Positions 1,059-17,717 of a stretch of 34,452 nucleotides of DNA are shown here, one piece after another. The notes beneath the pieces are model-generated. The model was not told the DNA's origin. It saw only the letters and a program-made list of their open reading frames with translations, and did not search any database. The position numbers and the translations under genes are program-made. The stretch's first letter is position 1, and every line of letters starts with the position of its first letter. Source of the stretch: a virus; IMG/VR virus record IMGVR_UViG_3300031977_000482, positions 1 through 34,452 of that record; one strand, written 5' to 3'.

Positions 1059-1064
1059 AATATA

Positions 1065-1274: not shown

Positions 1275-1276
1275 GG

Positions 1277-3023: not shown

Positions 3024-3026
3024 CTC

Positions 3027-4901
3027 TTAGTGCGTCTCAGCCCAGCTGTCACCTACTTTGTACTCACCGTCTAGCTGTACATTCAGCTTCAGTTCTTTAC
3101 CAGCTACACGAATAGCTTTCACTGCTAACTTACCGAAGTCCTCTGCGTGTTGTGGTATTACTTCTGCTTGGAACTCGTCGTGTATGTTAGCAACAAATGC
3201 GTACTCTCTACCGTGCTGCCACTTACTCTTACCGAGTGCGTGATACAGTTGGATAAGTGCTACCTTCATACACACTGCTCCGGCTGATTGAAGTAACATG
3301 TTCAGTGCTGCGTGACTACTGCGTATGCGTAACACCCGACCGTCTAGTCCTATCAATGTACCACCGTTCTCCACTTTCTTTTGGATAGCATCTTGTAGTC
3401 TCTTCAGTGCTGGTAGGTTATCTAAGAACTTACGCTTCAGTTGCACTCCTTCTTTAGCACCCCCTCCAATGATCTCTCCCATCTTAGCGGGACCAGCTCC
3501 GTATAACAAAGCGTAGATCATAGTCTTAGCTTGGTCTCTGTTGTCTAACCCTGCTCGTTCCATGTTGAATGTATGGATGTCTCCTTCTGTTACGATCTTA
3601 CCGTACTCTCCTCTGTCATAGAATGCTAAGTAATGTGCTAACATCCGCAGCTCCAACCCACTAGCATCACACCCAACCAACTTCTTACCAACACCCGCAC
3701 CGAACAATCCTCGACACTCTTCACCGTAAGGCACGCGACAAGCAGGAACCTGTGCTACATTTGGATTGCTGTGTGTACACCGCCCAGTCACTGCTCCATT
3801 TGTATTCACCGCTCCGTGTATCCGTCCGTTCTGAGCCAGCTTCAACCACGCTTGTTCTCCCTCTGCTAACTGACCAAGTCTTTTCTGTACGAGGAGATAG
3901 TCTAACAACTTCTGTGCGATTGGATGATCTATCTTCTTCAGTACTGCTTCATCTACTTTAGGTGTGGTAGCGTCTGGTTCCTTTGGTAGATCGTATCCAA
4001 GGTCAGCTAATGCTTGTGCTATCTGTTGTCGAGACCCTGGGTTGAACAGTGTGGTCTTTTGTTTGTTACCTTGCTTCTTCGCTTCCTTTAACAGTGTCTG
4101 TTTCAAACCTCTAGCTTTCAGTTGTTCCTTTAGTTTCACCTTGGTCTCAGCACTGAGTATCTCTACTTGGTCTTCACCTTCTATCATCAGTGTCCAACCA
4201 GCTGGACTCTTCATCTCTTCCACCTTTGGTGCTACCATTTGTTGTAGTTCGTCTTTCAACTCAGCACGGATAGAGGTTAACTTAGCGGTTAACTTGTCTG
4301 CTTTATCCAAATCAAAGCTGAATCCGTGTTTCTCCTGTTGAGATATGATGAATGCAAACCAATGTTCAATAGCTATCATCTGATTGCTTGGCTCTTGACT
4401 GAGTAGATAATCGTATAACAACTGTGTTACTATACAGTCACGCTCACAGTACTTCTTCATCTCATCGTTGTAGTGGTCGAATGCACCGTCCTCTTCTCCG
4501 TATGTTAGCTTCGTCTGCTTACCCATCCGGTGTCCCCAAGCTTTAAGCGAGTGACTACCTACAAGTTTAGAATCGAAGTTGTTACGACCGAAGTCCTCGT
4601 TGCGTAGGTCACTGAAGATACACCTAGATAATACTAAGGTATCTACTACTTTAACTAGAGGTGGAGAGAATCCGTACAGCTTCTTCAAAGCAGGAATATC
4701 AAACTTAATAACATTGTGTCCGACGATCCGGTCTGCTTCTGCTAGTGCTGTCAGTCCCCTGTGTATACTATCTCCCGCAAAGGTCACCATCTTCGGAACC
4801 ATTGGATCGTACACAGACAAGCAGTGTACCGTGTGTAAGTCCGTCAGATTAGTGAAGTCCTCAAGAGCATTTGTTTCTATATCAAAGAATAGTGTTCTCA
4901 T
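3027..4901 (-). CDS. Family A DNA polymerase with 3'-5' exonuclease, 624 aa
   Basis: The N-terminal proofreading domain shows FFDIETNA (ExoI, Asp7 and Glu9), HNVIKFDIPAL (ExoII) and YCERDCIVT (ExoIII). The polymerase domain shows motif A DASGLELRMLAHYL (Asp near 411), motif B RDQAKTMIYALLYGAG and motif C IHDEFQAEV. It is shorter than T7 gp5 (704 aa). The residue at the Pol I 762 position is Tyr, as in T7. The start is set at 4901 because an AGGAGG lies four bases upstream and the ATG overlaps the TGA of the preceding gene (ATGA). A frame-open ATG ten codons earlier lies inside that gene and lacks such a site. It acts with the primase-helicase and SSB encoded nearby. Confidence 0.96.
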   Translation of the reverse strand: MRTLFFDIETNALEDFTNLTDLHTVHCLSVYDPMVPKMVTFAGDSIHRGLTALAEADRIVGHNVIKFDIPALKKLYGFSPPLVKVVDTLVLSRCIFSDLRNEDFGRNNFDSKLVGSHSLKAWGHRMGKQTKLTYGEEDGAFDHYNDEMKKYCERDCIVTQLLYDYLLSQEPSNQMIAIEHWFAFIISQQEKHGFSFDLDKADKLTAKLTSIRAELKDELQQMVAPKVEEMKSPAGWTLMIEGEDQVEILSAETKVKLKEQLKARGLKQTLLKEAKKQGNKQKTTLFNPGSRQQIAQALADLGYDLPKEPDATTPKVDEAVLKKIDHPIAQKLLDYLLVQKRLGQLAEGEQAWLKLAQNGRIHGAVNTNGAVTGRCTHSNPNVAQVPACRVPYGEECRGLFGAGVGKKLVGCDASGLELRMLAHYLAFYDRGEYGKIVTEGDIHTFNMERAGLDNRDQAKTMIYALLYGAGPAKMGEIIGGGAKEGVQLKRKFLDNLPALKRLQDAIQKKVENGGTLIGLDGRVLRIRSSHAALNMLLQSAGAVCMKVALIQLYHALGKSKWQHGREYAFVANIHDEFQAEVIPQHAEDFGKLAVKAIRVAGKELKLNVQLDGEYKVGDSWAETH

Positions 4902-5317
4902 GCTTCCTCCTCTTCCTTCCTCTTCTTCCATGCTTTAAATTCAGGGTAAGGAGGTACATGTTTTTTATGTACCATGTGGCAAGATATATCACCCTTAACA
5001 CGACTCATTAATTCTAAGTAGTTATCGTATAAACAATACCACTCGTCCACCAAAAATCCTTCGTCATATATACCTGCGTCCTGCATTCCTGTTATAGTTT
5101 TTACTACCTCTACTAACTGCTCATACACATGGTGAAACTCTAACCTAATTCTCTTCTCATCAGATTCTGTATTGATAGTATTTTGTAGTTTAGCGTCCGT
5201 ATCTAATAACAACTCCTTAGCTAAGTATTTAATTTTTGTTTTATGTTTGTGTAGTAGCTCATCGAGAGAAGCTATATCCATTATCATTAATAGTTTTTTC
5301 TTTATACTCTTACTCAT
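4898..5317 (-). CDS. Unknown replication-operon protein, 139 aa
   Basis: This is a mostly helical, charged protein with a basic N-terminus and a basic then acidic C-terminus (KAWKKRKEEEEA). No recognised domain. It lies between primase-helicase (2-base gap) and DNA polymerase (ATGA overlap), so it is certainly co-expressed with them. The codons for its final Glu run (GAAGAGGAGGAAGC) also supply the AGGAGG ribosome-binding site for the polymerase, which explains part of the tail sequence. T7 has small genes 4.3-4.7 in the same place, but I see no clear homology. Function unknown. Confidence 0.75.
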   Translation of the reverse strand: MSKSIKKKLLMIMDIASLDELLHKHKTKIKYLAKELLLDTDAKLQNTINTESDEKRIRLEFHHVYEQLVEVVKTITGMQDAGIYDEGFLVDEWYCLYDNYLELMSRVKGDISCHMVHKKHVPPYPEFKAWKKRKEEEEA

Positions 5318-5319
5318 AT

Positions 5320-6912
5320 TTAGAATGGTTCATTATTGTTATTTGTTTCTTCAAAGGTACTCGCCCTCTCTTCCTCAGTGCACCTACCTGTATCACAGTT
5401 GTAATACAATGTACTACAGTGTCCAGTCTCACCGCTGAATCGATTCTTCAGTACTCTTACTTTTGTTTCGTTGGATAGCCTGTCGCTTTGTTGGTTGCGT
5501 TCCAATCCGATGACCATGTCACTTAACTGTGCGATTGCTTGTGACCCTCGGAGGTGATGCAGACTTACTCGTCCACCCTCTTCATGTCCAGTATCCACAC
5601 GCTTCAGATGACTGACCAATACCATACCACACCCTGTCTCCTCAACAAGAGATCGTAGCTTGGTCATTGTATTATCTATCAGTCTGCGTTCATCGTCTCC
5701 CTGTATCCCACTAACCACAATCGATAGGTGATCCAGGAATATCCATTTACAATCGAAGCCCTTAATCAGATACCTAATCTTGGATAACAGATTGTCACTC
5801 TCCATACTCCCGAAGTGATCGTAGGTGTAGAACTTACCGTTACCCACAGTCCTATCGAACGCAGGTTTCAGTTCCTTCTCATCTAACATATCATCATCTA
5901 GATGTAGTGGTTTGTTCATGTGTATTCCAAGGATACCCAACGCTGTGCGTCGTACTGATTCTTCAAGAGCTATGTAACCAACAGTCTCGCCCAACCCTAA
6001 CAGATGGTGTGCGATCTCACGACAGAACAGACTCTTACCAATACCACTACCAGCAGTAACAGTTACTAACTCTCCTAGTCTCATACCGTGAGTGATACTG
6101 TTCAACCCGATAAACGGATATGGTTTGCTTTTGTGTTCCTCCTTGTGGCTGATAACATCCCAGAGTTCCTTACCGTTTACGATACCGTCCGGTCTGTACT
6201 CACGAGCGTCGAACAAACAGTCTACTAGTTCCTTTGATCTACCCGCTAATAACATATCGTTAGCATCCTTTAGCGGTAGCTCTGCGATGTGTGCCTTACC
6301 AGGACTAAGCATACCAGCACAACTAGCTGCACCCTTTCTTCCTGTGTCGTCGTTATCAAAACAGAATATTACTTTCTCGTAACGCTCGACCCAATCCAAA
6401 GCATGCTTAAAGTTTTGCATACTACTAGCTGCACCATTCGGTATTGATACCACCGCCCATCGATTGTCTAGGATTTGTGACACAGATAAAGCGTCGATCT
6501 CACCCTCACATATTATTAGACGACGACCTCCATCTCTCCACAAATGCTGACCGTATAGACCTTTGATTGTACCTGTAGTAGCAAAAGACTTGTCAGCAAA
6601 TCGTATCTTTTGACCCATGATAGCACCATCTTTATTACGATAGTTAGCTATCTGTACTCCTTTATTTCTATACTCTCCTCTCCAGTATCCCCACTTCTTA
6701 CAGGTGTCTTCGTTTAATCCTCTCGCAGGTATAGACTCTGGTTTGCCTTGTGCAAAATCACTCGGTGTTGTGTCTGTCACTCTAGCATTCCCTCCATGTC
6801 TACCTCTGTGTTCATTACATGAGAAGCAGTGTGTACTCCCGTCGTCGTTGGTGGAACAGGCATCACTTGCTCCGCAGTCGGGACAGTCATGGTGTGTTTT
6901 GATGAAAGCCAT
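5320..6912 (-). CDS. T7 gp4-like DNA primase-helicase, 530 aa
   Basis: The N-terminus is a zinc-binding domain with Cys10, Cys13, Cys29 and Cys32 (CPDC ... CFSC), needed for primer-site recognition. A TOPRIM primase domain follows (LIICEGEIDALS near 130-142, CFDNDDTG near 185). The C-terminal half is a DnaB-type helicase with Walker A GSGIGKS near 286-293, Walker B in WIFLDHLSIVVSG, and the HLRGSQAIAQLSD arginine-finger region. The protein ends in an acidic, Asn-rich tail with a terminal Phe (EPF), like the T7 gp4 tail that contacts the polymerase. The first 136 bases overlap the endonuclease I frame. Length is close to T7 gp4 (566 aa). Confidence 0.95.
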   Translation of the reverse strand: MAFIKTHHDCPDCGASDACSTNDDGSTHCFSCNEHRGRHGGNARVTDTTPSDFAQGKPESIPARGLNEDTCKKWGYWRGEYRNKGVQIANYRNKDGAIMGQKIRFADKSFATTGTIKGLYGQHLWRDGGRRLIICEGEIDALSVSQILDNRWAVVSIPNGAASSMQNFKHALDWVERYEKVIFCFDNDDTGRKGAASCAGMLSPGKAHIAELPLKDANDMLLAGRSKELVDCLFDAREYRPDGIVNGKELWDVISHKEEHKSKPYPFIGLNSITHGMRLGELVTVTAGSGIGKSLFCREIAHHLLGLGETVGYIALEESVRRTALGILGIHMNKPLHLDDDMLDEKELKPAFDRTVGNGKFYTYDHFGSMESDNLLSKIRYLIKGFDCKWIFLDHLSIVVSGIQGDDERRLIDNTMTKLRSLVEETGCGMVLVSHLKRVDTGHEEGGRVSLHHLRGSQAIAQLSDMVIGLERNQQSDRLSNETKVRVLKNRFSGETGHCSTLYYNCDTGRCTEEERASTFEETNNNNEPF

Positions 6913-7899: not shown

Positions 7900-10224
7900 T
7901 TAAGAAAGTAGATACTTACTCCGTAATACTGCGGACACATCTAAGTCTCCAAGTTCCGGCACGGATGGCAGTTCTACTTTCGGGTTCATGTTGATTTGCT
8001 CCATTCGGAACTCTTCAAGGAGATCAACAGAAAATGTTTTAGTGTATGCTTCACGCACCATTCGGTGGATTTGTTTAGCGTTACTTGCGTGAGTCACAAA
8101 GCAGTCATGTATGGTAGCTAAGTCAAAGTCAACTTGATTCGCTACTTGATGTACAATACATGCGTCCAGACTGTGGATAAAGTTAGCAGTCACTGCTTTA
8201 CCGTGTTGCTTTGTATCTATATCATCTGTATCAGTGAAAGTGTTTAGATGTACAGTCGTGTTATCAAATACAGATTCTATAATTAACTTCTTACGCTTAC
8301 GAAAGCTCTGCTTAACTTTAAATCCTGTGGGTGTTGTCCAAGTAATACCGTCCTCGTAAGGCAAGCATCGAATTGTTTCACGCAGATACTTCATCACTCG
8401 GTTAACAGGTTTACATACCTCATCTGCTATCTTGTTAATGATATTACTGATCCAGATAACAGCAGTTAACATCTCTCCTGTACTACTCCACGGATGATTA
8501 AGTCCTATACTCTTAAATAAATCTTGTACTAAGTTATAACTGGTAGCACCGTATGGTCTGTTCATCACTGCCATCTTAGCTATCTTTCTTTTGATACCGT
8601 ACTGCATCCAAGTCTTAGCGATAACACCACCATCTTTAACTAGCTCATCGTGTATGCGATCTGCTACATATTGATACATGTCATTAGCTTGGTCTTCTTC
8701 TACCAGGTTACACATCCTACCCGTGTCTTTGTCCCGTAATAACAAAGATAGTATCTGCATACCATTATTGGAACAGTCCTGACGCACAGGTAAGTAGCTA
8801 ACATATCCATAACCCTCCTCTGTGTACTTCTTGAACTCTAAACAGAACCGCAAGAAACAGAACGGATCACTAGCATCTGTCCACCAATCAGTACCGTGTG
8901 GATCATTCGCAGCTTCCAATATAAAGTTCTGTCGTTTACCTACCCACTCTAGTCGTTCCTCTCGTGTACCCTTCACTCCCCACATGTTAGCACCGTGTAC
9001 TAGTACAGCTTCCAAGTCATCTTCATCTACTACTTGTTGACCGTTCTTAAAGTCCAACAAACTCTTAGCTAAATCAGATCCTTGTGGATGTAAGTAGTAC
9101 GGAATAGCGTACACTCTACCTCGGTAATCACAACGGTACGGAAAGTATATCTTCTCCCACTTCCTGTACATCTTAGCTAAGTGCAGAATACGACAAGCTT
9201 GGAATCTTTTGGAGCTGTTACTGGCGTTGGTAGTTTTTATATCTTTTTGTTTTAACTTCCAGATACTTAGCTCCTGCTCATCACCACCTGTATAGTACGG
9301 TTGCTCAGGTATCTCTCCAAATTGTGGGATGTTACCTACTACTCGTTCATTCTCCCAACACTTCAATGTAATATCTAACATATCCGTATTGATCTGCCAC
9401 TCCACCTGTTGTAATCGGTTAACAGCAGACATGACGTGGTCGTAGTTATTCCCTTCAAACCACTCAACAGGTTTACCCGTGAAGAATTTCTGTGCAGGTA
9501 GCTGTTCAATATCGTATCCACCACCTATCAATCCGTGCCAATCAACAGGACGGTCAGGTAATGCCATCTTAAATACTTGCCCCGCCTCTTTCCACTTATC
9601 AAAGCGATGTATCCAATCTTTAAACTCAGAGGTAGGTAATACGAAGCGTTCAGGTTTTTTTAAATTGTTCTTACCTTCACGGAATCCTATTTCAAAAAGA
9701 CCAGTACAACATCTGATTTCTTCCAACAACCAACAGCCTAGACTGACCTTATTTCTGTGATCCCACAGTTCAAACCGTGTGTCTTCGTACTTATAGAACT
9801 GCTTGATCTTACTTTGTTTCTTGCGGTCAGGTATAGCTAACAGGTCTTGCTTGTTGTGGCTCAAGTTCTCTAGTGCATACTTCCATCTAGCCTCATTCTC
9901 AAATGCTTTACCGATACGGTGTCCCATCCTGGCAACAGCTAAGTTGTTATCTAAGTTATTAAGAAAGGTACGCAAAGCAATAACAGCTATTTCATACGGA
10001 CACATATCCATGACAAAGGTCAGGTAAAGTGGTGTGGTGTATCCTGGACTACTAAATTGATCGATGATGTGCTTTACACGGTCACCTAACTTAGGGGCAC
10101 AACTCTGTAACATACGCTTACACGATGCTGTGTGGCTACTCTCTCCCTCCTGTCTCAGCTTGGCTTGTCGGTTACGATACTGCGTCCGTCCCCACTCCCT
10201 CATCCGTGCTACATGATCACTCAT
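7900..10224 (-). CDS. Single-subunit T7-type RNA polymerase, 774 aa
   Basis: The catalytic residues align with T7. Asp483 in RQDCSNNGMQ corresponds to Asp537. Arg546, Lys550 and Tyr558 in RKIAKMAVMNRPYG keep the exact T7 spacing of Arg627, Lys631 and Tyr639. Asp707 in IHDCFVTHA corresponds to Asp812. YRCDYRGRVYAIPYYLHPQG matches the conserved block before the palm. The enzyme is about 110 aa shorter than T7 RNAP, mostly N-terminal, and the region matching the T7 specificity loop is very different, so it should use its own promoter. It transcribes the middle and late genes. The start overlaps the upstream gene as ATGA. Confidence 0.97.
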   Translation of the reverse strand: MSDHVARMREWGRTQYRNRQAKLRQEGESSHTASCKRMLQSCAPKLGDRVKHIIDQFSSPGYTTPLYLTFVMDMCPYEIAVIALRTFLNNLDNNLAVARMGHRIGKAFENEARWKYALENLSHNKQDLLAIPDRKKQSKIKQFYKYEDTRFELWDHRNKVSLGCWLLEEIRCCTGLFEIGFREGKNNLKKPERFVLPTSEFKDWIHRFDKWKEAGQVFKMALPDRPVDWHGLIGGGYDIEQLPAQKFFTGKPVEWFEGNNYDHVMSAVNRLQQVEWQINTDMLDITLKCWENERVVGNIPQFGEIPEQPYYTGGDEQELSIWKLKQKDIKTTNASNSSKRFQACRILHLAKMYRKWEKIYFPYRCDYRGRVYAIPYYLHPQGSDLAKSLLDFKNGQQVVDEDDLEAVLVHGANMWGVKGTREERLEWVGKRQNFILEAANDPHGTDWWTDASDPFCFLRFCLEFKKYTEEGYGYVSYLPVRQDCSNNGMQILSLLLRDKDTGRMCNLVEEDQANDMYQYVADRIHDELVKDGGVIAKTWMQYGIKRKIAKMAVMNRPYGATSYNLVQDLFKSIGLNHPWSSTGEMLTAVIWISNIINKIADEVCKPVNRVMKYLRETIRCLPYEDGITWTTPTGFKVKQSFRKRKKLIIESVFDNTTVHLNTFTDTDDIDTKQHGKAVTANFIHSLDACIVHQVANQVDFDLATIHDCFVTHASNAKQIHRMVREAYTKTFSVDLLEEFRMEQINMNPKVELPSVPELGDLDVSAVLRSKYLLS

Positions 10225-10463
10225 AGATTCTCAAACCAATCAAAGTTTCCTTTAGGTTTCATGCGTGGTTTATTAGAACGAATAGCAATTAACCTACCAT
10301 CCTCCGTTCGTTTATATGTGCCATCTTTGTTCCGTTCAAACCCGTATATCTCCGTCATCATCCAGAACTGTTGGAAGCCATCGTTAATAGCTTTATGGTC
10401 GATGGTGCTGTAGTTTATGTCGTGCCTAGCACAGCCCTGAACTATATGGTTTTCACTGAACAT
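10221..10463 (-). CDS. Unknown protein upstream of RNA polymerase, 80 aa
   Basis: A soluble protein with an aromatic-rich centre (QQFWMMTEIYGFERN) and a basic C-terminal half ending in NFDWFENL. No known domain. The start is taken as the ATG at 10463. A TTG three codons earlier (10472) is in frame but less likely. It overlaps the RNA polymerase start by four bases (ATGA), so the two are probably translated together. A possible extended -10 promoter lies just upstream. Function unknown. Confidence 0.65.
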   Translation of the reverse strand: MFSENHIVQGCARHDINYSTIDHKAINDGFQQFWMMTEIYGFERNKDGTYKRTEDGRLIAIRSNKPRMKPKGNFDWFENL

Positions 10464-10486
10464 CTCGGTCAAGTAAATCGGTTCGT

Positions 10487-10495
10487 ATTATATCA
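10487..10495 (-). promoter_or_regulatory. Candidate host sigma-70 extended -10 promoter
   Basis: On the minus strand CTGATATAAT at 10496-10487 is a full extended -10 (TGnTATAAT). It lies in the 56-base gap between the 62-aa gene (stop 10520) and the 80-aa gene before the RNA polymerase. The matching -35 region is poor (TTTATT at an 18-base spacing), which is acceptable for an extended -10 promoter. It would let host polymerase transcribe the RNA polymerase operon. Sequence match only. Confidence 0.4.
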
Positions 10496-10519
10496 GCCTC
10501 CGCCTCCCAAAATAAATCA

Positions 10520-10708
10520 CTACTTGAGGTGGTGTTCGATCTCGTAGAAGTCGATCTTGTACGCTTCGCAGTAGTCCCTTTGGTCGTCCTCGTAATCCAT
10601 AGCACGGAGGTTTTCCAAGTGTTCTTCAAGTTCTTCATCCAGTTCATCATCGTATGGGTTGTATCGGTTAAGCCAGTTGTCGTAGTTAGGTAAATCAAAT
10701 TGCCTCAT
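10520..10708 (-). CDS. Unknown acidic protein, 62 aa
   Basis: This strongly acidic, Tyr-rich protein (DDELDEELEEHLENLR near residues 20-35) has the look of a small helical early phage protein. Some such proteins inhibit or mimic DNA-binding partners, but nothing specific can be said here. It overlaps the 81-aa gene upstream by four bases (ATGA). The competing frame at 10453-10698 is Thr-rich low complexity and is treated as a shadow of this gene. Confidence 0.6.
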   Translation of the reverse strand: MRQFDLPNYDNWLNRYNPYDDELDEELEEHLENLRAMDYEDDQRDYCEAYKIDFYEIEHHLK

Positions 10709-10950
10709 TTCATGTACTCCACAGATTCTATCTTAATCTTAACTAATCGTTGGGTACTACTAGGCTCATCGAATCGGTTGTGTTTTACTACTCCTTTGAT
10801 TAAGTCTTCAGCTCTTAAACCCATAGCTGTCTCAATACAGAAAAGATTAGGTTGCAAAGTCTTTAATCGTCTAGTGTCCTCCTCAAACATAGCATACAAT
10901 ACACCTTGTTCTCCTCCTCTAATTTTATAGTCAGTTATCTTCTTACTCAT
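10705..10950 (-). CDS. Unknown protein, 81 aa
   Basis: A small mixed alpha/beta protein that starts MSKKITDYKIRGGEQG and ends with a KIKIESVEYMK strand. No motif is recognised. It overlaps the methyltransferase-like gene upstream by 8 bases and the 62-aa gene downstream by 4 bases, so all three are in one translational unit in the early block leading to RNA polymerase. Function unknown. Confidence 0.6.
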   Translation of the reverse strand: MSKKITDYKIRGGEQGVLYAMFEEDTRRLKTLQPNLFCIETAMGLRAEDLIKGVVKHNRFDEPSSTQRLVKIKIESVEYMK

Positions 10951-11527
10951 AGTTATTATTCTTTTGTTTTTTAGTATTTATTTTATCAAGTACAAGCTCA
11001 AACCAATCAATCAATGCTTCAGGTGTGTACTCTCGTTGATATTGTGTACATCTTGTCGTCCCCTTTACATTACCACAGATGCTTCTTCTCTTACCCTTCT
11101 CACAAACATGAATCGTTTCGTCTTTGGGTGGAAGGTCAGGTAATTCATCACGATCAATACCACAAATGTACAACTTGGTTTTCTTGTGTGCGACATGACC
11201 GAAATCATACTGATCTATCTCGATAACAAATCCTTCGTCAATCCAAAACCAAGAATCATTCCATAACTTACTACCACTCGGATGTTCAACGATACCGCCC
11301 TTCCAAAAGACTTCGTTCAAAGCGTGGTAAGCCAGTTCTTTCTCCCCTTCACGAGGTGATGCCATGTGCGATAATCTACCCCAAGCTCGACAAGGTGGGT
11401 GACAGACGACAGGTAAGTTTCCGTTGTACTTAGTAGCGTCCCGATCAATGTCGTAAACATCCCACGCAGCACGCTTTTTGTAAGCACTATCGGTTCGACA
11501 AAACAAAGCTGTGTACTTCTTATTCAT
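10943..11527 (-). CDS. Degenerate cytosine-C5 methyltransferase-like protein, 194 aa
   Basis: The protein has HPPCRAWG, which resembles motif IV (catalytic Pro-Cys) of cytosine-C5 methyltransferases. It then has GGIVEHPSGSKLW in the place of motif VI, DFGHVAHKKTKLYICGID resembling motif VIII, and REYTPEALIDWF near the C-terminus resembling the last conserved motifs. A clear SAM-binding motif I (FxGxG) is not seen, and the family is short. I recall similar HPPC/EHP proteins in other phages and prophages without a proven function. It may bind or modify DNA or guard against host enzymes; this is inference. The start is placed at 11527 because the family core begins there and the ATGAATAA junction overlaps the upstream stop. 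A start at 11551 is also open. Confidence 0.65.
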   Translation of the reverse strand: MNKKYTALFCRTDSAYKKRAAWDVYDIDRDATKYNGNLPVVCHPPCRAWGRLSHMASPREGEKELAYHALNEVFWKGGIVEHPSGSKLWNDSWFWIDEGFVIEIDQYDFGHVAHKKTKLYICGIDRDELPDLPPKDETIHVCEKGKRRSICGNVKGTTRCTQYQREYTPEALIDWFELVLDKINTKKQKNNNYE

Positions 11528-11660
11528 TCGGTTTAATAGTTTCGTATCCATGTTCTTTTAGAAATTCAATAGCTTCGTTAATCTCTTCTTGAAGTTCTAG
11601 TTCATAGTAGTAAGCTCTTCTTCTTTGTAATTCTTCTTCGGTTATTAAATCAGGATTCAT
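11520..11660 (-). CDS. Small acidic helical protein, 46 aa
   Basis: The frame starts MNPDLITEEELQRRR and is almost wholly helical with many Glu and Tyr. A GGAGG lies seven bases before the ATG, the best ribosome-binding site in this part of the window. The start overlaps the stop of the upstream 54-aa gene as TAATG. The end overlaps the methyltransferase-like gene by 8 bases. Too short for family assignment. Coding is supported by spacing, codon pattern and the ribosome-binding site. Confidence 0.65.
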   Translation of the reverse strand: MNPDLITEEELQRRRAYYYELELQEEINEAIEFLKEHGYETIKPNE

Positions 11661-11824
11661 TATTCTTCCTCCAGTTTCTCAAGGTGTTCTTTGTATAGTT
11701 GCAAGGACAGGTAAAGGTCAAGCCATCTTCCATCCAACTCTCGGTTCATATCGTTGTTAAAAATGTGGAACATCAGTTCCTCGGTCATGTCTATTGGGTC
11801 AAGTAATAGTTCTCGGTTATTCAT
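11660..11824 (-). CDS. Small unknown protein, 54 aa
   Basis: The frame starts MNNRELLLDPIDMTEEL and ends in an amphipathic helix (YKEHLEKLEEE). One exact copy of the GGWCAGGTAA motif (11705-11714) lies inside it, read as Tyr-Leu-Ser. It is joined to the next gene by TAATG. Upstream ribosome-binding signal is weak. The unbroken frame, fully packed neighbours and helical pattern support coding. Function unknown. Confidence 0.6.
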   Translation of the reverse strand: MNNRELLLDPIDMTEELMFHIFNNDMNRELDGRWLDLYLSLQLYKEHLEKLEEE

Positions 11825-11828
11825 AGGT

Positions 11829-11900
11829 TTAATCTCGGTAAAGCACTGCGATTGCTACAAGTACAACAAAGCACAGGCAGAAAAAGGTTAAGGTACTCAT
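11829..11900 (-). CDS. Candidate single-pass membrane microprotein, 23 aa
   Basis: The frame MSTLTFFCLCFVVLVAIAVL followed by YRD is one hydrophobic helix with a short polar end, typical of a tiny membrane peptide. It fits between two small genes with 4- and 11-base gaps. An AGGAG is present about 14 bases upstream, at the far edge of useful spacing. Such peptides can act on membrane enzymes or aid lysis, but the role here is unknown. Confidence 0.45.
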   Translation of the reverse strand: MSTLTFFCLCFVVLVAIAVLYRD

Positions 11901-11911
11901 TTGATATGTTA

Positions 11912-12076
11912 TCACTCCTGGTTAGATCGGTTAAGTAGTTCTTGTTGTAGCTCCACGAGCCTGTCCCTAACAGTTAAGTTATCAGGTAAGCGTTCCTTCA
12001 CGGACAGGTAATGCTGTATCAAAACCTCAAGGCTCTGATCGTCTAGCGTTTCAAGGTGTTCTGGATCAGTGTTCAC
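11912..12076 (-). CDS. Small helical protein with GTG start, 54 aa
   Basis: The GTG at 12076 overlaps the end of the upstream 63-aa gene and is preceded by GGAAAAG at a useful distance. The product is helical and charged, with a C-terminal RLVELQQELLNRSNQE. It holds one exact motif copy (12002-12011) and a second partial copy (11980-11989) 13 bases further along the coding strand. No ATG in this frame gives a longer product. Function unknown. Confidence 0.5.
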   Translation of the reverse strand: MNTDPEHLETLDDQSLEVLIQHYLSVKERLPDNLTVRDRLVELQQELLNRSNQE

Positions 12077-12257
12077 TTGTAATCTTTTCCAATTCAGAAG
12101 CTAAAATTAATTCAGCTCGGTCATTAATCTCATTGTCGGATAGTTCTAACAGGAAACCATCACGGACAGGTAAGCATAGCCTACCATCATCGGTTTCGAT
12201 TACTTTGATTTCGTTGTTGGTGTACCATTGCTTGGCAAGTTGTATAGTAGTATTCAT
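12066..12257 (-). CDS. Unknown early protein, 63 aa
   Basis: A small protein with an N-terminal helix (MNTTIQLAKQWYTNNE), a beta hairpin (VIETDDGRLCLPVRDGFLLEL) and an acidic C-terminal helix. One exact motif copy (12164-12173) lies in the hairpin, read as Leu-Pro-Val. No known family. It lies in the tight early gene array, 8 bases after the preceding gene. Confidence 0.6.
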   Translation of the reverse strand: MNTTIQLAKQWYTNNEIKVIETDDGRLCLPVRDGFLLELSDNEINDRAELILASELEKITSEH

Positions 12258-12265
12258 TATTTTAT

Positions 12266-12556
12266 TTATTTATTAGTAGTAGTTTCGGTTAAACAATCGG
12301 GACAGGTACTTTGACCTTCCATTTTAGGGTTTGTCAATCCGCAAGTGTCGCAAGCTTTACGCTTCTTTAATTCTTTAAGCACAGCCTTTGCACATTCTAT
12401 GAACTCTGATTTGCTCGCACAGGTACCAGAATATTCAGGGTGCTGTTTACATTTCCAGATAAGCTTAGGAACGGCAGAATATCGCTCACTATCTATGTAG
12501 TAAAAGAAAGCAACTTGGTTCCCGTTGTGGTCGGTTAGGTATTCGGTGACGCTCAC
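12266..12556 (-). CDS. Zinc-ribbon early protein, 96 aa, GTG start
   Basis: The C-terminal third has two CxxC pairs (CDTCG about residue 69, CPDCL about residue 84) spaced as a zinc ribbon. The N-terminal part has aromatic strands (VAFFYYIDSERY) and a HPEYSGTCASKSEFI region that may carry more ligands. The start codon is GTG at 12556, overlapping the stop of the upstream 50-aa gene as GTGA. Zinc ribbons of this kind bind nucleic acid or protein partners. The target is unknown. Confidence 0.65.
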   Translation of the reverse strand: MSVTEYLTDHNGNQVAFFYYIDSERYSAVPKLIWKCKQHPEYSGTCASKSEFIECAKAVLKELKKRKACDTCGLTNPKMEGQSTCPDCLTETTTNK

Positions 12557-12705
12557 TCTTGAATATCCTCCGTTACTTCACCATCTTCATCATCGGTACG
12601 CCATCGCTTAACGATAACCTCGCCATCGATTGAATCGTCAAAGTAATAAATATACTTACCAATGGTGACATATAAAGAGTTGTCGCTTGGTTGATGTATT
12701 TTCAT
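12553..12705 (-). CDS. Small acidic protein, 50 aa
   Basis: The frame starts MKIHQPSDNSLYVTIGKYIYYFDD and ends with an acidic tail (DDEDGEVTEDIQE). A beta-rich first half with alternating Tyr and Ile suggests a small folded domain. The stop overlaps the GTG start of the next gene. No good ribosome-binding site is seen upstream. Coding is supported by the fit between neighbours. Confidence 0.6.
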   Translation of the reverse strand: MKIHQPSDNSLYVTIGKYIYYFDDSIDGEVIVKRWRTDDEDGEVTEDIQE

Positions 12706-12729
12706 GTGTCTTGCGGTAAGGTTTGTCGG

Positions 12730-13026
12730 TTAGTAAGATAGTCCTTTATGCTCTAATATATCCCGCAAGCGAATAAGTACTTTGCCAAACTCTAATATTT
12801 CTTGGTCAGGTAAGCTTAACTCTTTAAGAGATTGGAAAACATAAGATTCTTCATCTGCACCTAATGGACTAGCTCTAAATTGCCAATCGTCTGGTACGCA
12901 TTCGTCCGTTTCAAAGGTCAGGTAATCGCAGATTGCAAACAGCCATTGCATACAATTGCCCCATGCGTCCCCGTCATTAGTTGCTCTAAATTCGTGTTTA
13001 AGTGTTTCGTTCATTGGATAGTTCAT
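12730..13026 (-). CDS. Unknown early protein, 98 aa
   Basis: An acidic protein with a Trp/Cys-rich middle (WGNCMQWLFAICDYLTF about residues 22-38) and a C-terminal helix pair. Two exact motif copies lie in this gene (12804-12813 and 12916-12925), in different frames (Leu-Pro-Asp and Tyr-Leu-Thr). A second in-frame ATG at codon 5 is possible. The leader just upstream carries one copy of a 14-base repeat (13026-13039). Function unknown. Confidence 0.65.
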   Translation of the reverse strand: MNYPMNETLKHEFRATNDGDAWGNCMQWLFAICDYLTFETDECVPDDWQFRASPLGADEESYVFQSLKELSLPDQEILEFGKVLIRLRDILEHKGLSY

Positions 13027-13039
13027 TTTGATAGATAGT
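13026..13039. repeat. Intergenic leader repeat, copy 1
   Basis: TTTTGATAGATAGT on the plus strand is identical to 13367-13380. In both cases it lies just after the stop codon of one small gene and before the start of the next, with a similar CCTT..AATTA stretch between the stop and the repeat. It may be a shared translation leader or the trace of a local duplication. Confidence 0.6.
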
Positions 13040-13050
13040 TAATTAAAAGG

Positions 13051-13344
13051 TTAGTTTGCAAGCAATACACAATCAGCAAGCTGTTCAGCTAGATCAATAG
13101 ACAATTCTTCAAGGTCATCGTCTGCACTTAATTCTGTTACAGCCCAGTGCTTATGAAAGTAACAAGCACCAGAAAAAGAGTTGTCGCCAGATTGAAAATT
13201 TAATTCTTCAAGATTATCACAAGTGCTGAAAGTCATTTGTATAGACTCGCTTTCGCCTACTTCATCATAGCTAGGTAAATAATCTTCAAGGATTGAAAAG
13301 ATAGATGTTTGTAATGCTTTTATTTTTTGATCGATGTTTTTCAT
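13051..13344 (-). CDS. Unknown early protein, 97 aa
   Basis: An acidic protein with a conserved-looking centre, SGDNSFSGACYFHKHWAV near residues 52-69. I associate this GDN...HxHW form with small phage early proteins of unknown role. It ends with ADCVLLAN, close to DCVLIAHF at the end of the 108-aa protein at 13567-13893, though the rest does not align. The leader is AT-rich with a run of nine A and no ribosome-binding site. Function unknown. Confidence 0.65.
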   Translation of the reverse strand: MKNIDQKIKALQTSIFSILEDYLPSYDEVGESESIQMTFSTCDNLEELNFQSGDNSFSGACYFHKHWAVTELSADDDLEELSIDLAEQLADCVLLAN

Positions 13345-13366
13345 AGTAGTATAGTTTTTTTTTGAT

Positions 13367-13380
13367 TTTTGATAGATAGT
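13367..13380. repeat. Intergenic leader repeat, copy 2
   Basis: Second copy of TTTTGATAGATAGT (see 13026-13039). It lies between the stop of the 51-aa membrane protein gene and the start of the 97-aa gene. Confidence 0.6.
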
Positions 13381-13392
13381 AAGTAATTAAGG

Positions 13393-13548
13393 TTAAGAGA
13401 TACAAAGCCAGAGGATCATAAGCCAAGACGCAACAGCACTTGCACAGATACAGCACCCGATAAACAAGTTTTCTAGGCGTTGTGAAGCTTTAGGCATTTG
13501 GCAATCGTCAAGGTTGATTAAGCGGTCTTTATCGATGGTAACTTTCAT
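13393..13548 (-). CDS. Small membrane protein, 51 aa
   Basis: The N-terminal half is soluble and charged (MKVTIDKDRLINLDDCQMPK). The C-terminal 23 residues are one hydrophobic, Cys-rich membrane helix (FIGCCICASAVASWLMIL then WLCIS). AGGAGG lies eight bases before the ATG, which is strong for this region. With a cytoplasmic head and one membrane segment it could tether to or inhibit a membrane-linked host function. The role is not known. Confidence 0.7.
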   Translation of the reverse strand: MKVTIDKDRLINLDDCQMPKASQRLENLFIGCCICASAVASWLMILWLCIS

Positions 13549-13566
13549 ATTATGTACCTCCTGTGA

Positions 13567-13893
13567 TTAGAAGTGAGCAATTAAGACGCAATCGTCATCC
13601 CAAGAAATAACAGAGGTATAATCTGAGAAAACATCTCTGTATTCATCTTCTTCTTCACACATCTCAAAAGCGTCAAGGTGTTTAAAGCTGTCGATGCATT
13701 CTTGTTTTGAATCGTACTCTGTGTAGTCACAGCAGAAGGCAATAGGATCAAGCTCCAGTTCAACTCCGCAATCTTCTTCGTACTCTGTGAGATATTGAAA
13801 GAGATGCTTGCGAGCTTTTACACTGAAGTTAGTACCTCTGTTGTATTGATCGAATGAATTAACGAAGTCAGATTCTGTAATGGTTTTTTTCAT
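13567..13893 (-). CDS. Conserved phage early protein with CCDYTEY motif, 108 aa
   Basis: The block YLTEYEEDCGVELELDPIAF followed by CCDYTEY, and a final DYTSVISWDDDCVLIAHF, match a pattern I recognise from many unrelated phages: a short acidic protein with [IV]A-x-CC-[DE]-[YF]-[ST]-E-[YF] and a C-terminal N/D-x-T-x-V-I strand. Its function is not established. It is strongly acidic. It sits in the early block, 22 bases after the preceding gene. The start codon is an ATG with no clear ribosome-binding site. Confidence 0.75.
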   Translation of the reverse strand: MKKTITESDFVNSFDQYNRGTNFSVKARKHLFQYLTEYEEDCGVELELDPIAFCCDYTEYDSKQECIDSFKHLDAFEMCEEEDEYRDVFSDYTSVISWDDDCVLIAHF

Positions 13894-13915
13894 GATGTAT
13901 TTTGTTTTCTAGTGT

Positions 13916-14107
13916 TTATTGATTGTTAGTGGTTTCAAATATCTTTTCGCTCTTTACCCCGTTGTAATGAACTTCAATTGTAAAGCCCCCGAAAAGATTG
14001 TTTGCATATTGCTTTGCTTTCCTAATTGCTTCTTCTTTCTTAAAAGAGAATCCTAATTGCTTGGCAAAGCCGTATTCGTTGCGTTGGTAGATGTAGTAAG
14101 TATTCAT
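13916..14107 (-). CDS. First gene of the early array, unknown, 63 aa
   Basis: A small, basic protein (MNTYYIYQRNEYGFAKQLGF, then KKEEAIRKAKQYANNLFGG) with an alpha/beta look. This is the most upstream gene of the tightly packed early array, preceded by nearly 500 bases of non-coding DNA, so its promoter should lie there. No family recognised. Function unknown. Confidence 0.6.
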   Translation of the reverse strand: MNTYYIYQRNEYGFAKQLGFSFKKEEAIRKAKQYANNLFGGFTIEVHYNGVKSEKIFETTNNQ

Positions 14108-14603
14108 GCCTCACTCATTACAGAGTTTTCTCCAGAGCTCCATCAAAAAAAGTTCAAATGATGATTGTATAAGTGCAACTTATCACCGGTATTAGATTGG
14201 TAGAGAGTAAGCAAAGGCACATTTCAATCTTTTCAATCGTTTCAAAAATAAATGAAAATGGAACATCGAAAGAGAAAAACACATAGACAAGCAATTCATG
14301 CAAATACACTAACAAGGCGACAAGATCAGCAGTTGATCAGTGCCGCAAAAGCTGGGTAATCTCTGTTGATTTGCGAAAATAATTAAGAGCTTTTACTCTG
14401 GAATCTGTGATGTTTGCATAAGTCCTTGATAATCAACAAAAGCTATTAGACATAATGAAGAATGTGCGAATCATATCCCCCTCCCCTATAAAATACTTAC
14501 GGGTATGCGGGGGTAATTAACGCACGCGTATATAGCGTAGGTGTCTCAGATTTTTCTACCAAAACTTTTCTAGGAGGTAGTTCTATATTAGTTAGGAACT
14601 TAG
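14108..14603. other. Non-coding early leader region
   Basis: No convincing gene is seen on either strand. The region is AT-rich and holds three features. A CCCCC/GGGGG dyad lies at 14477-14513 and contains, on the minus strand, ACCCGTAA (14504-14497) and TATAGGGGAGGGGG (14490-14477). A short GCGTA-TATA-GCGTA repeat lies near 14525-14539. A TTTCAA-type triple repeat lies near 14222-14250. It probably carries early promoters and possibly part of the terminal repeat. No strong sigma-70 promoter was found by eye. Confidence 0.55.
14477..14513. promoter_or_regulatory. C-run/G-run dyad with phage-promoter-like elements
   Basis: CCCCC at 14477-14481 and GGGGG at 14509-14513 form an outer inverted repeat. 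Reading the minus strand, ACCCGTAAG is followed by TATAGGGGAGGGGG. The TATAGGGG(A) part resembles the initiation region of T7-type promoters, and ACCCGTAA resembles the end of the Syn5 promoter as I recall it. Either could be chance. It lies upstream of the early gene array in the right orientation. Confidence 0.35.
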
Positions 14604-14819
14604 TCAGAAGCTCGGATCAAACGGCTCTTCATCGTCCTCTACTAGCTCGTCAAAGTCTCCTTCGAATATAACATCATCTGTTTCAGTTAACACCGACAGT
14701 TTAGCGAAGTCCAGGCATCCAGCTATTGTGTAGTCGTTAAGATCGTACTCTCGTTTAAAGCGGTATATAAGCTTTGCTAGTTCGTACTGGAAGGTCTCTG
14801 TTTGTTCATCTATTGTCAT
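14604..14819 (-). CDS. Unknown acidic protein between terminase and early genes, 71 aa
   Basis: The first 50 residues form helices with the pattern ELAKLIYRFKREYDL then IAGCLDFAKLSVL, a form I know from small phage proteins found in many phages without a proven role. The C-terminus is strongly acidic (FDELVEDDEEPFDPSF). It is the only gene in the roughly 1.2 kb between large terminase and the early array, and is flanked on both sides by non-coding DNA. It could therefore be the first early gene or lie close to the genome end. Confidence 0.65.
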   Translation of the reverse strand: MTIDEQTETFQYELAKLIYRFKREYDLNDYTIAGCLDFAKLSVLTETDDVIFEGDFDELVEDDEEPFDPSF

Positions 14820-15309
14820 GTGTTATAAGTATACAGCTATACGAGAATTTTTCATAGGTTAAACTACAACAAGATTCTTGACCAGTGTTTAAGCGGTTCC
14901 TAGAAAATAAGCTTTACAAAGTCCCTTCGGTTTGAGATCGTTATAATATTGATATTAAGATAGTACTTTAGAGTTAGTTTTAAAGTTATTATTTGTATGT
15001 ATAGGTCAAGTGTACAAGCAGTTGGTGTTAGAGTCGTATTAGCTGCTTACTGCTACAGCTTTCCTTTTAACAAAGATTCCTTAGTAGATAGCTTCAGCTA
15101 CATCAGATCAGTAAGACTCTGTTGAGCTGCTCATACATCCGTTCTTTCGCAGCTGCTTTAGAGTGGTGACTGATGCTTGTATTATAGATTCCCTTTTAAG
15201 GATAGGTGTGTTTATAAATAAACCAGCAGCAGTAGCTATAACATACTTAGTGTATTTAAACTAACTACAACAGCACTATATATACAGAGCTAAAGATTTG
15301 TTATAGAAT
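14820..15309. other. Non-coding region, candidate genome-end junction
   Basis: About 490 bases after the large terminase stop hold no supported gene. By position this matches the T7 right end/left end junction. Features seen: minus-strand TAATACGACTC (15041-15031), identical to the first 11 bases of the T7 promoter; three AGCTGCT copies (15041, 15125, 15151); and two similar TTCC(C)TTTTAA elements (15061 and 15189). Only one copy of any terminal repeat would be present in a joined assembly, so its borders cannot be read here. Confidence 0.55.
15031..15041 (-). promoter_or_regulatory. T7-promoter-like sequence
   Basis: Minus-strand TAATACGACTC matches positions -17 to -7 of the T7 promoter exactly. 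The downstream part (TAACACCAACTG) does not match the T7 initiation region. The phage polymerase specificity region differs from T7, so identity with T7 may be chance. The site is non-coding and points toward the early genes. Confidence 0.3.
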
Positions 15310-17004
15310 CTATATCCAAGTTACAGAAGCTTTGTTATTACTTCTTTTATGAAAGCTATCAGTAAACTTTGTTAGTTCTTCTTGAAGCAGTTCTTGTTGT
15401 CTATCAATCATAGATTGGTTAACATCAGCAGCCATCTGCTGCACCCAATAACCAACAGCTATTGATAACGCATCAAGACGGTCATCATGTACTAAGCTAC
15501 CCCTATCTCTTGTTATCCTGGATAACTGATACATCAGCATGTACCTTGTTTGTTGTTCAATAGGATAGCTAAGAGCTGACCTGTAATCGTTATTTATAAC
15601 AGTAGGATCGATGATAAGCCTATGAGAGTTTAACACAGGTTCAAGAGTATCAACAATCCGTAGCTCCTTCTGTTTGTTATGTCTGACTTCTTCTATTGTT
15701 ACAGGGTATGTTGTTCTAAACAGAGGCTTAATCAACTCCATAAACATACCGTCACCAAAGTTAGACTCTATCACTACCTTGTTAACTTTGTTATCCTTAG
15801 CGATAGCTACGAGTTGTTGTAAGGTCTTAGTATCGTAGCCTCCTCTTATCCCACCAGCATCCGGAACAAACAGCTGACCGTTTAACATCTTTACTACAGC
15901 GTACCCTGTTTCATCCTTACCACGACCAGATGGGTCAATAGATAGCACGGAGCCTGTGTACGGTATCATATCCCCAACAGTGTTAGCAGGTCTTCTGTAT
16001 CGATCTCCAGCTAGTCCTACATTAGGTAGTTCTCTATCACAGTTATCAGGGTCAGATGACCACACGATCTTTTCAGGGGCTACATCCACATCAACATCCA
16101 TCACTACTAGATCGTTAATCTTTAGTGGGTATCTATCAGCATCACTCAGCTTCGGATTAAGCATGAACTGTAGAGCGTACCCCGTCCGACCATACGACAT
16201 CTTTCTTTCTTCCAGGTCAAGATCAGTGAACCGTAAGGGTTCTGTAGAAGTACCGATAGTCTCAGGTGTTATGTTATCCGCTATAAGGGGTGCTAGATCG
16301 CCTCCGTAGTTGTTAATAGCTTCTGTATCATCTGGATACTCTGAAGACCATATACGGCTCTTGTATCCCCTCTCTCGCAGTTTGTTGTATATACTGTCCT
16401 CACATTGAGGAGTACCAAGAAAGATGATCCTTGAGGAGTCCAAGGGTTTAATGATAGCGTCGAACTCTTTTACTTGTTCATCCAGCTTATCTCTCATTCC
16501 TTGAGTAGCACTGTTGTTAGCTACCTCCACATCGTCTGCTACAATTATATCAGCACGAGAACCTGTTAGCTGGGATGATATACCTAGCGACTTAACAGAG
16601 GGTGCGTGAGAGGCGGGAGCAGGTCCTACATCAAATGCTATCTTACTGAATCGTTGGTTCTCTGATGGCTTTAATCCTTGTAAAATGGGAATCTCCTGAA
16701 TGATTCGCAAGGTAAATGTAGAGAAGTCATCTGATCTATTCTTACTAGCTGATACAACAAGTATGTTTTTAGATGGGTCCAGCAGTAGCTGATGTACTAC
16801 AAAAGCACTACAGACCCAACTTTTTCCAACGCCCCTAAAAGCCATAATAACAGACCGCTTAGGACCATGTTGTAAATAAGACGCTATGTCATACTGCAGT
16901 TCAGTCGGATCTGGTAAATTCAAATGCTTCCATACTAAGTATAAGAAGTTTCTGAAATCTTTTAGTTGTGGCGGGACTTTTACATTCTTTACAGACCTTG
17001 CCAT
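15310..17004 (-). CDS. terL: Terminase large subunit (T7 gp19-like), 564 aa
   Basis: The ATPase domain has Walker A in FRGVGKSW (residues about 56-63) and Walker B in ADIIVADDVEV (about 150-160). The nuclease domain has LSIDPSGRGKDETGYAVV, a VIESNFGDGMF segment and HDDRLDALSIAVGYW, which supply the acidic metal ligands. Length is close to T7 gp19 (586 aa). It cuts concatemers and drives DNA into the prohead at the portal. The start overlaps the HNH gene by 16 bases. The stop codon is followed by the long non-coding region, as in T7. Confidence 0.96.
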   Translation of the reverse strand: MARSVKNVKVPPQLKDFRNFLYLVWKHLNLPDPTELQYDIASYLQHGPKRSVIMAFRGVGKSWVCSAFVVHQLLLDPSKNILVVSASKNRSDDFSTFTLRIIQEIPILQGLKPSENQRFSKIAFDVGPAPASHAPSVKSLGISSQLTGSRADIIVADDVEVANNSATQGMRDKLDEQVKEFDAIIKPLDSSRIIFLGTPQCEDSIYNKLRERGYKSRIWSSEYPDDTEAINNYGGDLAPLIADNITPETIGTSTEPLRFTDLDLEERKMSYGRTGYALQFMLNPKLSDADRYPLKINDLVVMDVDVDVAPEKIVWSSDPDNCDRELPNVGLAGDRYRRPANTVGDMIPYTGSVLSIDPSGRGKDETGYAVVKMLNGQLFVPDAGGIRGGYDTKTLQQLVAIAKDNKVNKVVIESNFGDGMFMELIKPLFRTTYPVTIEEVRHNKQKELRIVDTLEPVLNSHRLIIDPTVINNDYRSALSYPIEQQTRYMLMYQLSRITRDRGSLVHDDRLDALSIAVGYWVQQMAADVNQSMIDRQQELLQEELTKFTDSFHKRSNNKASVTWI

Positions 17005-17717
17005 ATCTCGGTGTGTTTATCTTGTTTACGCAGGTTCCATTTAGCTGGTACTACTTGTAAGTTTAGTGGGTGATGTAAACCTCCTTTAGCTAAAGGTACT
17101 ATATGGTCTACATGAAAAGGTATCTGAAGTTTTTTAGAGACCCGTTCACAGTGTTTATAAATTTGTTTTATCTCGTCCTCTTGTTCTGTTGTAAGACCTA
17201 CAATAGCTTTTTTTATTTTACTTCTTCGTTTACTACTTGCTGCTCTTAAAGTAATCTTACCTTTATCTGTCTTCCTATATCGCTGTACAGCCTTTTTTCC
17301 TTTTTCAGTTTTGTTATAACGAGCATTAGCTTTGATATTGTTTTTCCTTCCAGCTTCCGTTCTATAATAGCGTGCTACCCCCTCCTTTTTTCTTTTCTTA
17401 TATTTTTCGTCGTTTTTGTAGCGTTCCCTGTCTCTTTTTCTTATACGCTCTTTATTTTTTTGTCTATAAATCTTATCTGATATTTCCCTCCGCTCCAAGT
17501 ACGATAAAACAACCCAGTTCTCCCTGTTACTATCTTTTCTGTAATCAAGATAAAACAAACCTTCTACAGTAGGGTGAGGGTCGCCTCTTTTAAAAGTTCC
17601 TTTAGGTTTTCCAGTTGCTAACAATTTTTGATTGAAGCCTTTACCACGCCTGTACTTATCCAGGCTATCTTCAAACAAATCAAGCTTCAGCTGCATCTCT
17701 CTCGTATTCGTCGCCAA
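16989..17717 (-). CDS. HNH endonuclease between terminase genes, 242 aa
   Basis: The C-terminal domain has HVDHIVPLAKGGLHHPLNLQ and then VVPAKWNLRKQDK, a standard HNH ββα-metal site. The N-terminal part has GDPHPTVEGLFYLDYR. The middle (about residues 85-165) is a very basic array of short repeats of the form RY-x-[KR]-T-[ED]-x-GK, which probably wraps DNA. It overlaps terS by 38 bases and terL by 16 bases. HNH genes beside terminase genes may either be homing enzymes or help packaging. The repeat array favours specific DNA binding. Confidence 0.85.
   Translation of the reverse strand: MATNTREMQLKLDLFEDSLDKYRRGKGFNQKLLATGKPKGTFKRGDPHPTVEGLFYLDYRKDSNRENWVVLSYLERREISDKIYRQKNKERIRKRDRERYKNDEKYKKRKKEGVARYYRTEAGRKNNIKANARYNKTEKGKKAVQRYRKTDKGKITLRAASSKRRSKIKKAIVGLTTEQEDEIKQIYKHCERVSKKLQIPFHVDHIVPLAKGGLHHPLNLQVVPAKWNLRKQDKHTEIWQGL

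Follow-up and report, generated by a model that had tools for sequence, protein, structure and literature searches.

Two short motifs recur in many copies through the first-expressed genes of an uncultured group of aquatic T7-like phages. We analyzed one 34,452-nucleotide (nt) stretch of viral DNA, referred to throughout as the window (positions 1 to 34,452 of IMG/VR record IMGVR_UViG_3300031977_000482), together with related contigs. All annotated genes of the window lie on the minus strand, so the ten-base motif GGWCAGGTAA is read in mRNA as TTACCTGWCC, here called M1. It is found in eight exact copies in the early operon and the RNA polymerase gene, all in one orientation, and a stronger motif, M2 (TAACCGA, with the core AACCGA), shares this domain. 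The sites are under selection as nucleotides, are restricted in strand and domain, turn over among relatives, concentrate at start codons, and in leaders have a predicted tendency to be single stranded. We propose, at a probability of roughly one half, that M1 and M2 are mRNA-level elements through which a putative trans-acting factor represses or cuts early messages. What is new is that an early domain, one-strand occurrence, a start-codon link, and codon steering come together, while the mechanism is putative.

Strand and domain restriction of M1 and M2

M1 was first described in an earlier note on this DNA. The signal is real and strong, and the note understated it, missing a copy at 27694, the TTACTTGACC copies at 10467 and 11797, M2, the start-codon link, and the triplet structure. 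Its eight exact copies are all in place as GGWCAGGTAA on the plus strand, and its five near copies are real (Table 1). Its statement that the exact motif is confined to the early and polymerase region holds for these eight; the ninth exact copy, at 27694, is on the opposite strand and is at chance level. When the window was shuffled by dinucleotides, 0.09 M1 copies were expected on the two strands combined, versus nine observed. When synonymous codons were shuffled 2000 times within the early region, leaving proteins and codon counts unchanged, M1 had a mean of 0.21 copies and a maximum of 3, versus eight observed. Translation frames confirm that four copies are read as Leu-Pro and four as Tyr-Leu, and the failure of codon-preserving shuffles to reproduce the count bears out the note's view that DNA rather than peptide is conserved.

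M2 emerged when k-mers of the early region were compared with those in the rest of the window. Its core, AACCGA, occurs 15 to 16 times in the early region versus 2 to 3 times elsewhere, and is absent from the region's reverse strand. The full TAACCGA is present 10 times in the early region, against a codon-shuffle mean of 2.1 and maximum of 7 (2000 trials).

The relatives sampled comprise about 100 IMG/VR contigs obtained in two scans with the polymerase, with polymerases 68 to 94% identical. Nearly all contigs that bear an early region have M1 on the coding strand, typically in 2 to 7 copies, and none has it on the reverse strand or beyond an interval of about -4 to +1.5 kb around the polymerase start. 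Pooled by distinct context, there are 193 coding-strand occurrences between -4 and +2 kb relative to that start and none on the reverse strand or anywhere else, and the M1 variants GTACCTGWCC, ATACCTGWCC, and TTACTTGWCC show the same enrichment on the coding strand of the early domain. In per-kb profiles AACCGA declines where the polymerase gene ends and farther on is no commoner than chance predicts. As the loci behind pooled context counts are not phylogenetically independent, clustering by flanks served as a control; with contexts taken as separate when their flanks are less than 55% alike, 63 M1 and 95 M2 nonhomologous contexts remain. Positions of both motifs within the variable small genes differ between phages.

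M2 has no conserved neighbor at all in the flank comparison, and the relatives' flanks hold no conserved base within 60 nt outside the motifs except weak neighbors, which rules out promoters with a fixed second element. The check in relatives proposed by the earlier note thus went in its favor, as the signal is kept while positions and codons change, rather than sites being lost from retained peptides. Its suggestion that the motif marks a recent exchange is rejected, as is an origin by DNA duplication, given the unrelated flanks of these 63 and 95 contexts and the presence of the same motifs in lineages with about 30% polymerase difference.

Codon steering and concentration at start codons

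Asn-Arg is encoded as AACCGA in 129 of 251 early contexts versus 1 of 87 in other genes (P = 6e-21), with overall Arg and Asn codon use alike in the two sets. Tyr-Leu-Ser/Thr occurs in 122 contexts in early proteins versus 7 elsewhere, and Leu-Pro-Asp/Val in 117 versus 16. In the polymerase, the residue after Ala-Leu-Pro-Asp is either Arg, Gln, or Pro, with which the 10-mer is possible, or Glu, with which it is not; TTA is used for Leu-Pro-Asp in 64 of 67 cases with a permitting next residue, compared to 5 of 13 without (P = 6e-6). A third polymerase site, site C, is seen in a subclade with Tyr-Leu-Thr and is gone where the residue is Gln, Tyr then being encoded by TAT. These patterns at site C and at Leu-Pro-Asp show that sites persist amid varying flanking codons and that codons relax once a site is lost. 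A peptide motif is ruled out by the two reading frames and the codon tests; selection acts on the nucleotides.

The TTACCTGACC form of M1 is found in 41 independent contexts. Twenty-two lie outside any reading frame, 21 of them ending 0 to 9 nt before an ATG, a location that accounts for 0.9% of early positions. With a second set of open reading frames (ORFs), 57% of TTACCTGACC contexts lie within 30 nt upstream of a start, versus a background of 9.7% (P = 1.6e-12), and the same is true of 22% of TAACCGA (P = 3e-4), while the excess of the TTACCTGTCC form near starts is not significant. ORF starts were called mechanically, which blurs start-linked signals and should not create them.

M1 is built of two ACC-type triplets with a two-base spacer, and leaders often have three (ACC-TT-ACC-TG-ACC). 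The typical leader is TAACCTTACCTGACC-ATG, in which three ACC units are spaced by two bases. Across early genes, ACC density is raised at -30 to -1 and at +10 to +30 of the start codon. ACC-NN-ACC, a 5-nt period, is the peak spacing, with 291 contexts, whereas the reverse strand has 46 and other genes predict about 49; for three ACC units in a row the corresponding numbers are 44, 0, and 0. M1 near an ATG is predicted to be more unpaired than with shuffled flanks (0.675 versus 0.517, t = 5.9), and the reverse strand has little such tendency at M1 sites.

A putative early-message signal and its alternatives

A strand-bound element that is tied to start codons and limited to the early operon implicates the message. 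Among the four roles offered by the earlier note, sites in early mRNA fit best, as copies concentrate in translation initiation regions; we infer that RNA is the molecule recognized and that the effect is negative. A putative factor, encoded by phage or host, would bind M1 and M2 on the single-stranded early message. Initiation would be blocked at sites that coincide with the ribosome footprint ahead of a start codon, and sites at starts and inside genes would mark the message for cutting or decay. Early messages, which by analogy with the T7 layout would be made by host RNA polymerase, could be shut off as a class, that of the phage RNA polymerase gene included, sparing the replication and late-gene messages that have no sites.

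The closest parallel is phage T4, where RegB cuts GGAG in the initiation regions of early messages, with some sites intragenic, and spares most middle and all late messages (PMC3014915). A factor that reads ACC-NN-ACC and AACCGA and blocks or cuts early messages is proposed by analogy with it, and both systems place a short motif in early initiation regions with some copies inside genes. The TTACCTGACC form shares the RegB-type location, whereas the TTACCTGTCC form does not. The GGAG/U core is lacking, M1 and M2 are ten and seven nt rather than four, and intragenic copies are far more numerous here. No PF10715 (RegB) match was found in the window, and control genomes likewise gave none. The proposed control would work like T4 RegB/RegA yet belongs to neither. 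TRAP sites consist of 9 to 11 (G/U)AG triplets with 2- to 3-nt spacers (PMC3913778). The repeated triplets with a two-base spacer, some of them over translation starts, resemble these, although the triplet is ACC instead of (G/U)AG and there are two or three units rather than eleven. CsrA/RsmA sites differ in their GGA core, which is absent from the mRNA strand of M1 and M2.

Several observations count against an early-message element. About half of the M1 and most of the M2 sites are within genes, where they would be useless to a simple initiation repressor, and the unpaired tendency of M1 inside genes is not clear (t = 1.4). Tagging of each cistron is ruled out, as genes are tagged no more evenly than by random placement. 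Early proteins gave no match to RNA-binding or nuclease families, and two widespread early families, one of them beta-rich with a C-terminal cysteine pattern, were modeled with moderate confidence and had no PDB match. Window proteins lack PF02081 (TRAP), which was matched in the Bacillus subtilis control, leaving room for a host TRAP, and PF02599 (CsrA/RsmA) was not found in the window while the E. coli control matched. Finally, as genes run one way throughout the domain, effects on the DNA strand and on mRNA are inseparable by sequence.

One-strand DNA nicking is the strongest rival and, in our judgment, an unlikely though serious one. A phage nickase would cut one strand at each motif, leaving single-strand interruptions in the DNA of virions or in DNA under replication; such nicks are known from phage tf, the tf/Rembedalsseter group, and phiKMV-like phages. 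Known nick motifs are 9 to 10 nt long and lie on one strand only in 9 to 14 copies per genome, a number maintained in a group of 61 phages whose nucleotide sequences have little in common. They are unevenly spread, mostly intragenic, and mostly in coding-strand orientation, and phage tf carries TACT/RTGMC at 14 sites, all on a single strand (PMC3517423, PMC11780129). M1 is very similar in size, strandedness, copy number (about 10 per genome), distribution, and persistence despite diverging positions and sequence. Autographiviridae also include phiKMV-like phages, and the window encodes endonuclease I and a 242-amino-acid (aa) protein adjoining terminase (16989 to 17717, minus strand) with a weak C-terminal HNH match (E = 8e-4), a possible nickase if nicking is correct. 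Against this, M1 and M2 are unlike both TACTRTGMC and CGACN5CCTACTCCGG, and in a phiKMV control the phage's own nick consensus occurs only three times, at annotated phage promoters, and M1 not at all. Moreover, the coding share of tf-group nick motifs equals that of the host genome, whereas TTACCTGACC directly precedes ATG, and two unrelated motifs sharing one strict early domain are not expected of nick sites.

It is also unlikely that the motifs are elongation signals, read as RNA or nontemplate DNA, for pausing, termination, or antitermination (nut-, put-, or ops-like for host polymerase, class II-like pauses for phage polymerase). Their strand specificity, their limitation to the early operon and polymerase gene, an orientation that always matches transcription, and the use of other motifs in sister lineages with other polymerases all suit such signals, but dozens of scattered copies would be unneeded, placement at -20 to -1 of starts is unexpected, and neither a T-run nor a second element at fixed distance was found near the motifs. 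Quite unlikely are DNA-level sites, either Chi-like and guarding the entering end or bound by a host or phage protein on direct pentamer repeats (TNACC). The direct repeats of 5-bp period and the location of the domain in the left-end part of the genome, in T7 orientation, agree with this, yet the 2 kb directly after the terminase gene, first to enter, are nearly site free, and the G-rich strand is template here but coding for the Ayaqvirus motif described below. The idea that M1 replaces the Shine-Dalgarno sequence as a translation enhancer of early genes is very doubtful: although the Shine-Dalgarno signal is slight in early leaders and M1 occupies the ribosome-binding position in many relatives, the M1-ATG gap of 0 to 9 nt has no single optimum, intragenic M1 has no start codon to serve, and M1 is missing from middle and late genes of the same phage. 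A role as replication origin or as primer sites, raised by the earlier note, is unlikely too, with motifs in dozens of places over about 5 kb, tied to start codons, and a W that breaks the T7-type GTC primase site.

Complementary antisense RNA from the phage is ruled out, as no relative scanned has GGWCAGGTAA on the reverse strand around the polymerase gene. When viral contigs were scanned for TAACCGA near TTACCTGWCC, the matches outside the clade were mostly single and chance-like. Rfam had no match in 7900 to 15400, and a literature search for the motif strings retrieved no paper.

Gene layout, sister lineages, and implications

The window holds a T7-like podovirus gene set: single-subunit RNA polymerase, T7-type primase-helicase, family A DNA polymerase, exonuclease, terminase, and tail fiber proteins. 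In transcription order, late genes and terminase (ending at 15310) precede the early genes, which are followed by the polymerase, and the record is therefore circularly permuted relative to T7. By terminase, the closest named relative is Ayaqvirus S45C18 (65%); for the RNA polymerase, identity to phage records is at most about 30%. A host search with genome contigs returned a single distant relative (29% identity) in a Neomarinimicrobiota metagenome-assembled genome.

Table 1. Coordinates of genes and motif copies in the window, and spans of the sister-lineage motifs
Feature	Position	Strand	Remarks
Single-subunit (T7-type) RNA polymerase, 774 aa	7900..10224	-	Pfam RNA_pol E=1.1e-70; motif domain stops at gene 3' end (per-kb profile)
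Motif-rich section of early operon, ~12 small genes	10221..13026	-	
M1 TTACCTGACC, polymerase site B (Ala-Leu-Pro-Asp-Arg-Pro)	9552..9561	-	Most relatives keep it at +648..+675 of polymerase gene
M1 TTACCTGACC, polymerase site A (Leu-Tyr-Leu-Thr-Phe)	10018..10027	-	Relatives: +188/+197
M1 TTACCTGACC, 202-aa early gene	11134..11143	-	
M1 TTACCTGTCC, 54-aa early gene 11660-11824	11705..11714	-	
M1 TTACCTGTCC, early gene 11912-12076	12002..12011	-	
M1 TTACCTGTCC, early gene 12066-12257	12164..12173	-	
M1 TTACCTGACC, early gene 12730-13026	12804..12813	-	
M1 TTACCTGACC, early gene 12730-13026	12916..12925	-	
M1 variant ATACCTGACC	9825..9834	-	Variant class in relatives 26/0/0 (early/reverse/elsewhere), coding strand only
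M1 variant TTACTTGACC	10467..10476	-	Beside AACCGA 10478-10483, before gene 10221-10472; variant class 26/0/0
M1 variant TTACTTGACC, gene 11660-11824	11797..11806	-	One mismatch
M1 variant GTACCTGTCC, gene 12266-12556	12300..12309	-	Variant class 25/0/0
M1 near copy TTACCTGTCG	11407..11416	-	
M1 near copy TTACCTGTGC, polymerase gene	8784..8793	-	
M1 near copy outside early domain	33285		
M2 TAACCGA	12726..12732	-	Leader of gene 12553-12705; degenerate M1 follows
M2 TAACCGA	12531..12537	-	
M2 TAACCGA	12285..12291	-	
M2 TAACCGA	11927..11933	-	
M2 TAACCGA	11813..11819	-	At start of gene 11660-11824
M2 TAACCGA	11638..11644	-	
M2 TAACCGA, gene 10520-10708	10664..10670	-	
M2 TAACCGA, polymerase codons 18-19 (Asn-Arg)	10168..10174	-	CGTAACCGA in 80/95 polymerases
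M2 TAACCGA, polymerase gene	9415..9421	-	
M2 TAACCGA, polymerase gene	8398..8404	-	
ATCGTTGGGC span, AP013544.1	-1813 to +1029 of RNA polymerase start	coding	
AGGGGCGA span, AP013545.1 (Foussvirus)	8712-10749		
AGGGGCGA span, AP013541.1 (Sieqvirus)	36423-39771		
AGGGGCGA span, MT375520.1 (Bylgja)	3192-5766		

Two minus-strand sequences are similar to the T7 promoter start and could be phage promoters: TAATACGACTC (15040), which precedes the early region, and TAATACGAACC (10489), which precedes the gene ahead of the polymerase. A search of the window for near-identical 18-mers found no phage promoter family. The early protein at 12266 to 12556 (minus strand) belongs to a conserved family found in 66 of the loci, with a predicted beta-rich N-terminal domain, a C-terminal CxxC...CxxC pattern, and a C-terminal linker that has interchangeable inserts among relatives, for example, ELLMSEASNG. 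In some relatives the early region has groups of larger genes at about -1527 to -752, which resemble those for pterin/queuosine-type enzymes, including a QueD-like 118-aa protein; phages with such QueD-like early genes may make modified guanines.

Sister marine Autographiviridae have early motifs of their own. Ayaqvirus S45C18 (AP013544.1) and its relatives have ATCGTTGGGC in 4 to 7 copies on the early coding strand, and Foussvirus S46C10, Sieqvirus S42C7, and Pelagibacter phage Bylgja have about 10 early-region copies of AGGGGCGA, AGGGGCG(A), several of which form tandem runs in noncoding leaders, while one occupies a ribosome-binding position. As with M1 and M2, there are many early coding-strand copies and almost none elsewhere, whereas the sequences are unrelated and most AGGGGCGA copies group together in noncoding leaders instead of being dispersed over genes. 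No early motif of comparable strength was seen in CRP-171, CRP-361, or LUZ100. In T7, AAGCGC occurs 7 times in the early region (679 to 3684, extending to +1 kb in gene 1) and once on the coding strand outside it. It also has 8 copies on the opposite strand, and its abundance is probably an effect of base composition.

Lineage-specific early motifs may be a more general feature. A broader and more tentative proposal, which we consider possible but less probable than its alternatives taken together, is that in several T7-like lineages the host-transcribed early transcript carries a lineage-specific, many-copy mRNA address. A coevolving phage factor would read it, turning early messages off at the hand-over to phage polymerase, and the address would be dense enough to steer codons, and even amino acids, of unrelated early proteins.

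The end of the early phase in T7-like phages is known mainly from T7, through inhibition of the host polymerase. If early messages are indeed recognized through M1 and M2, an address on every early message would be a second switch, acting at the level of the message, and a rare case of regulatory sites in coding DNA dictating the codons and residues of unrelated proteins. If the motifs are nick sites instead, nicks would extend to an abundant aquatic phage group, and the link to early genes could expose the function of nicks.

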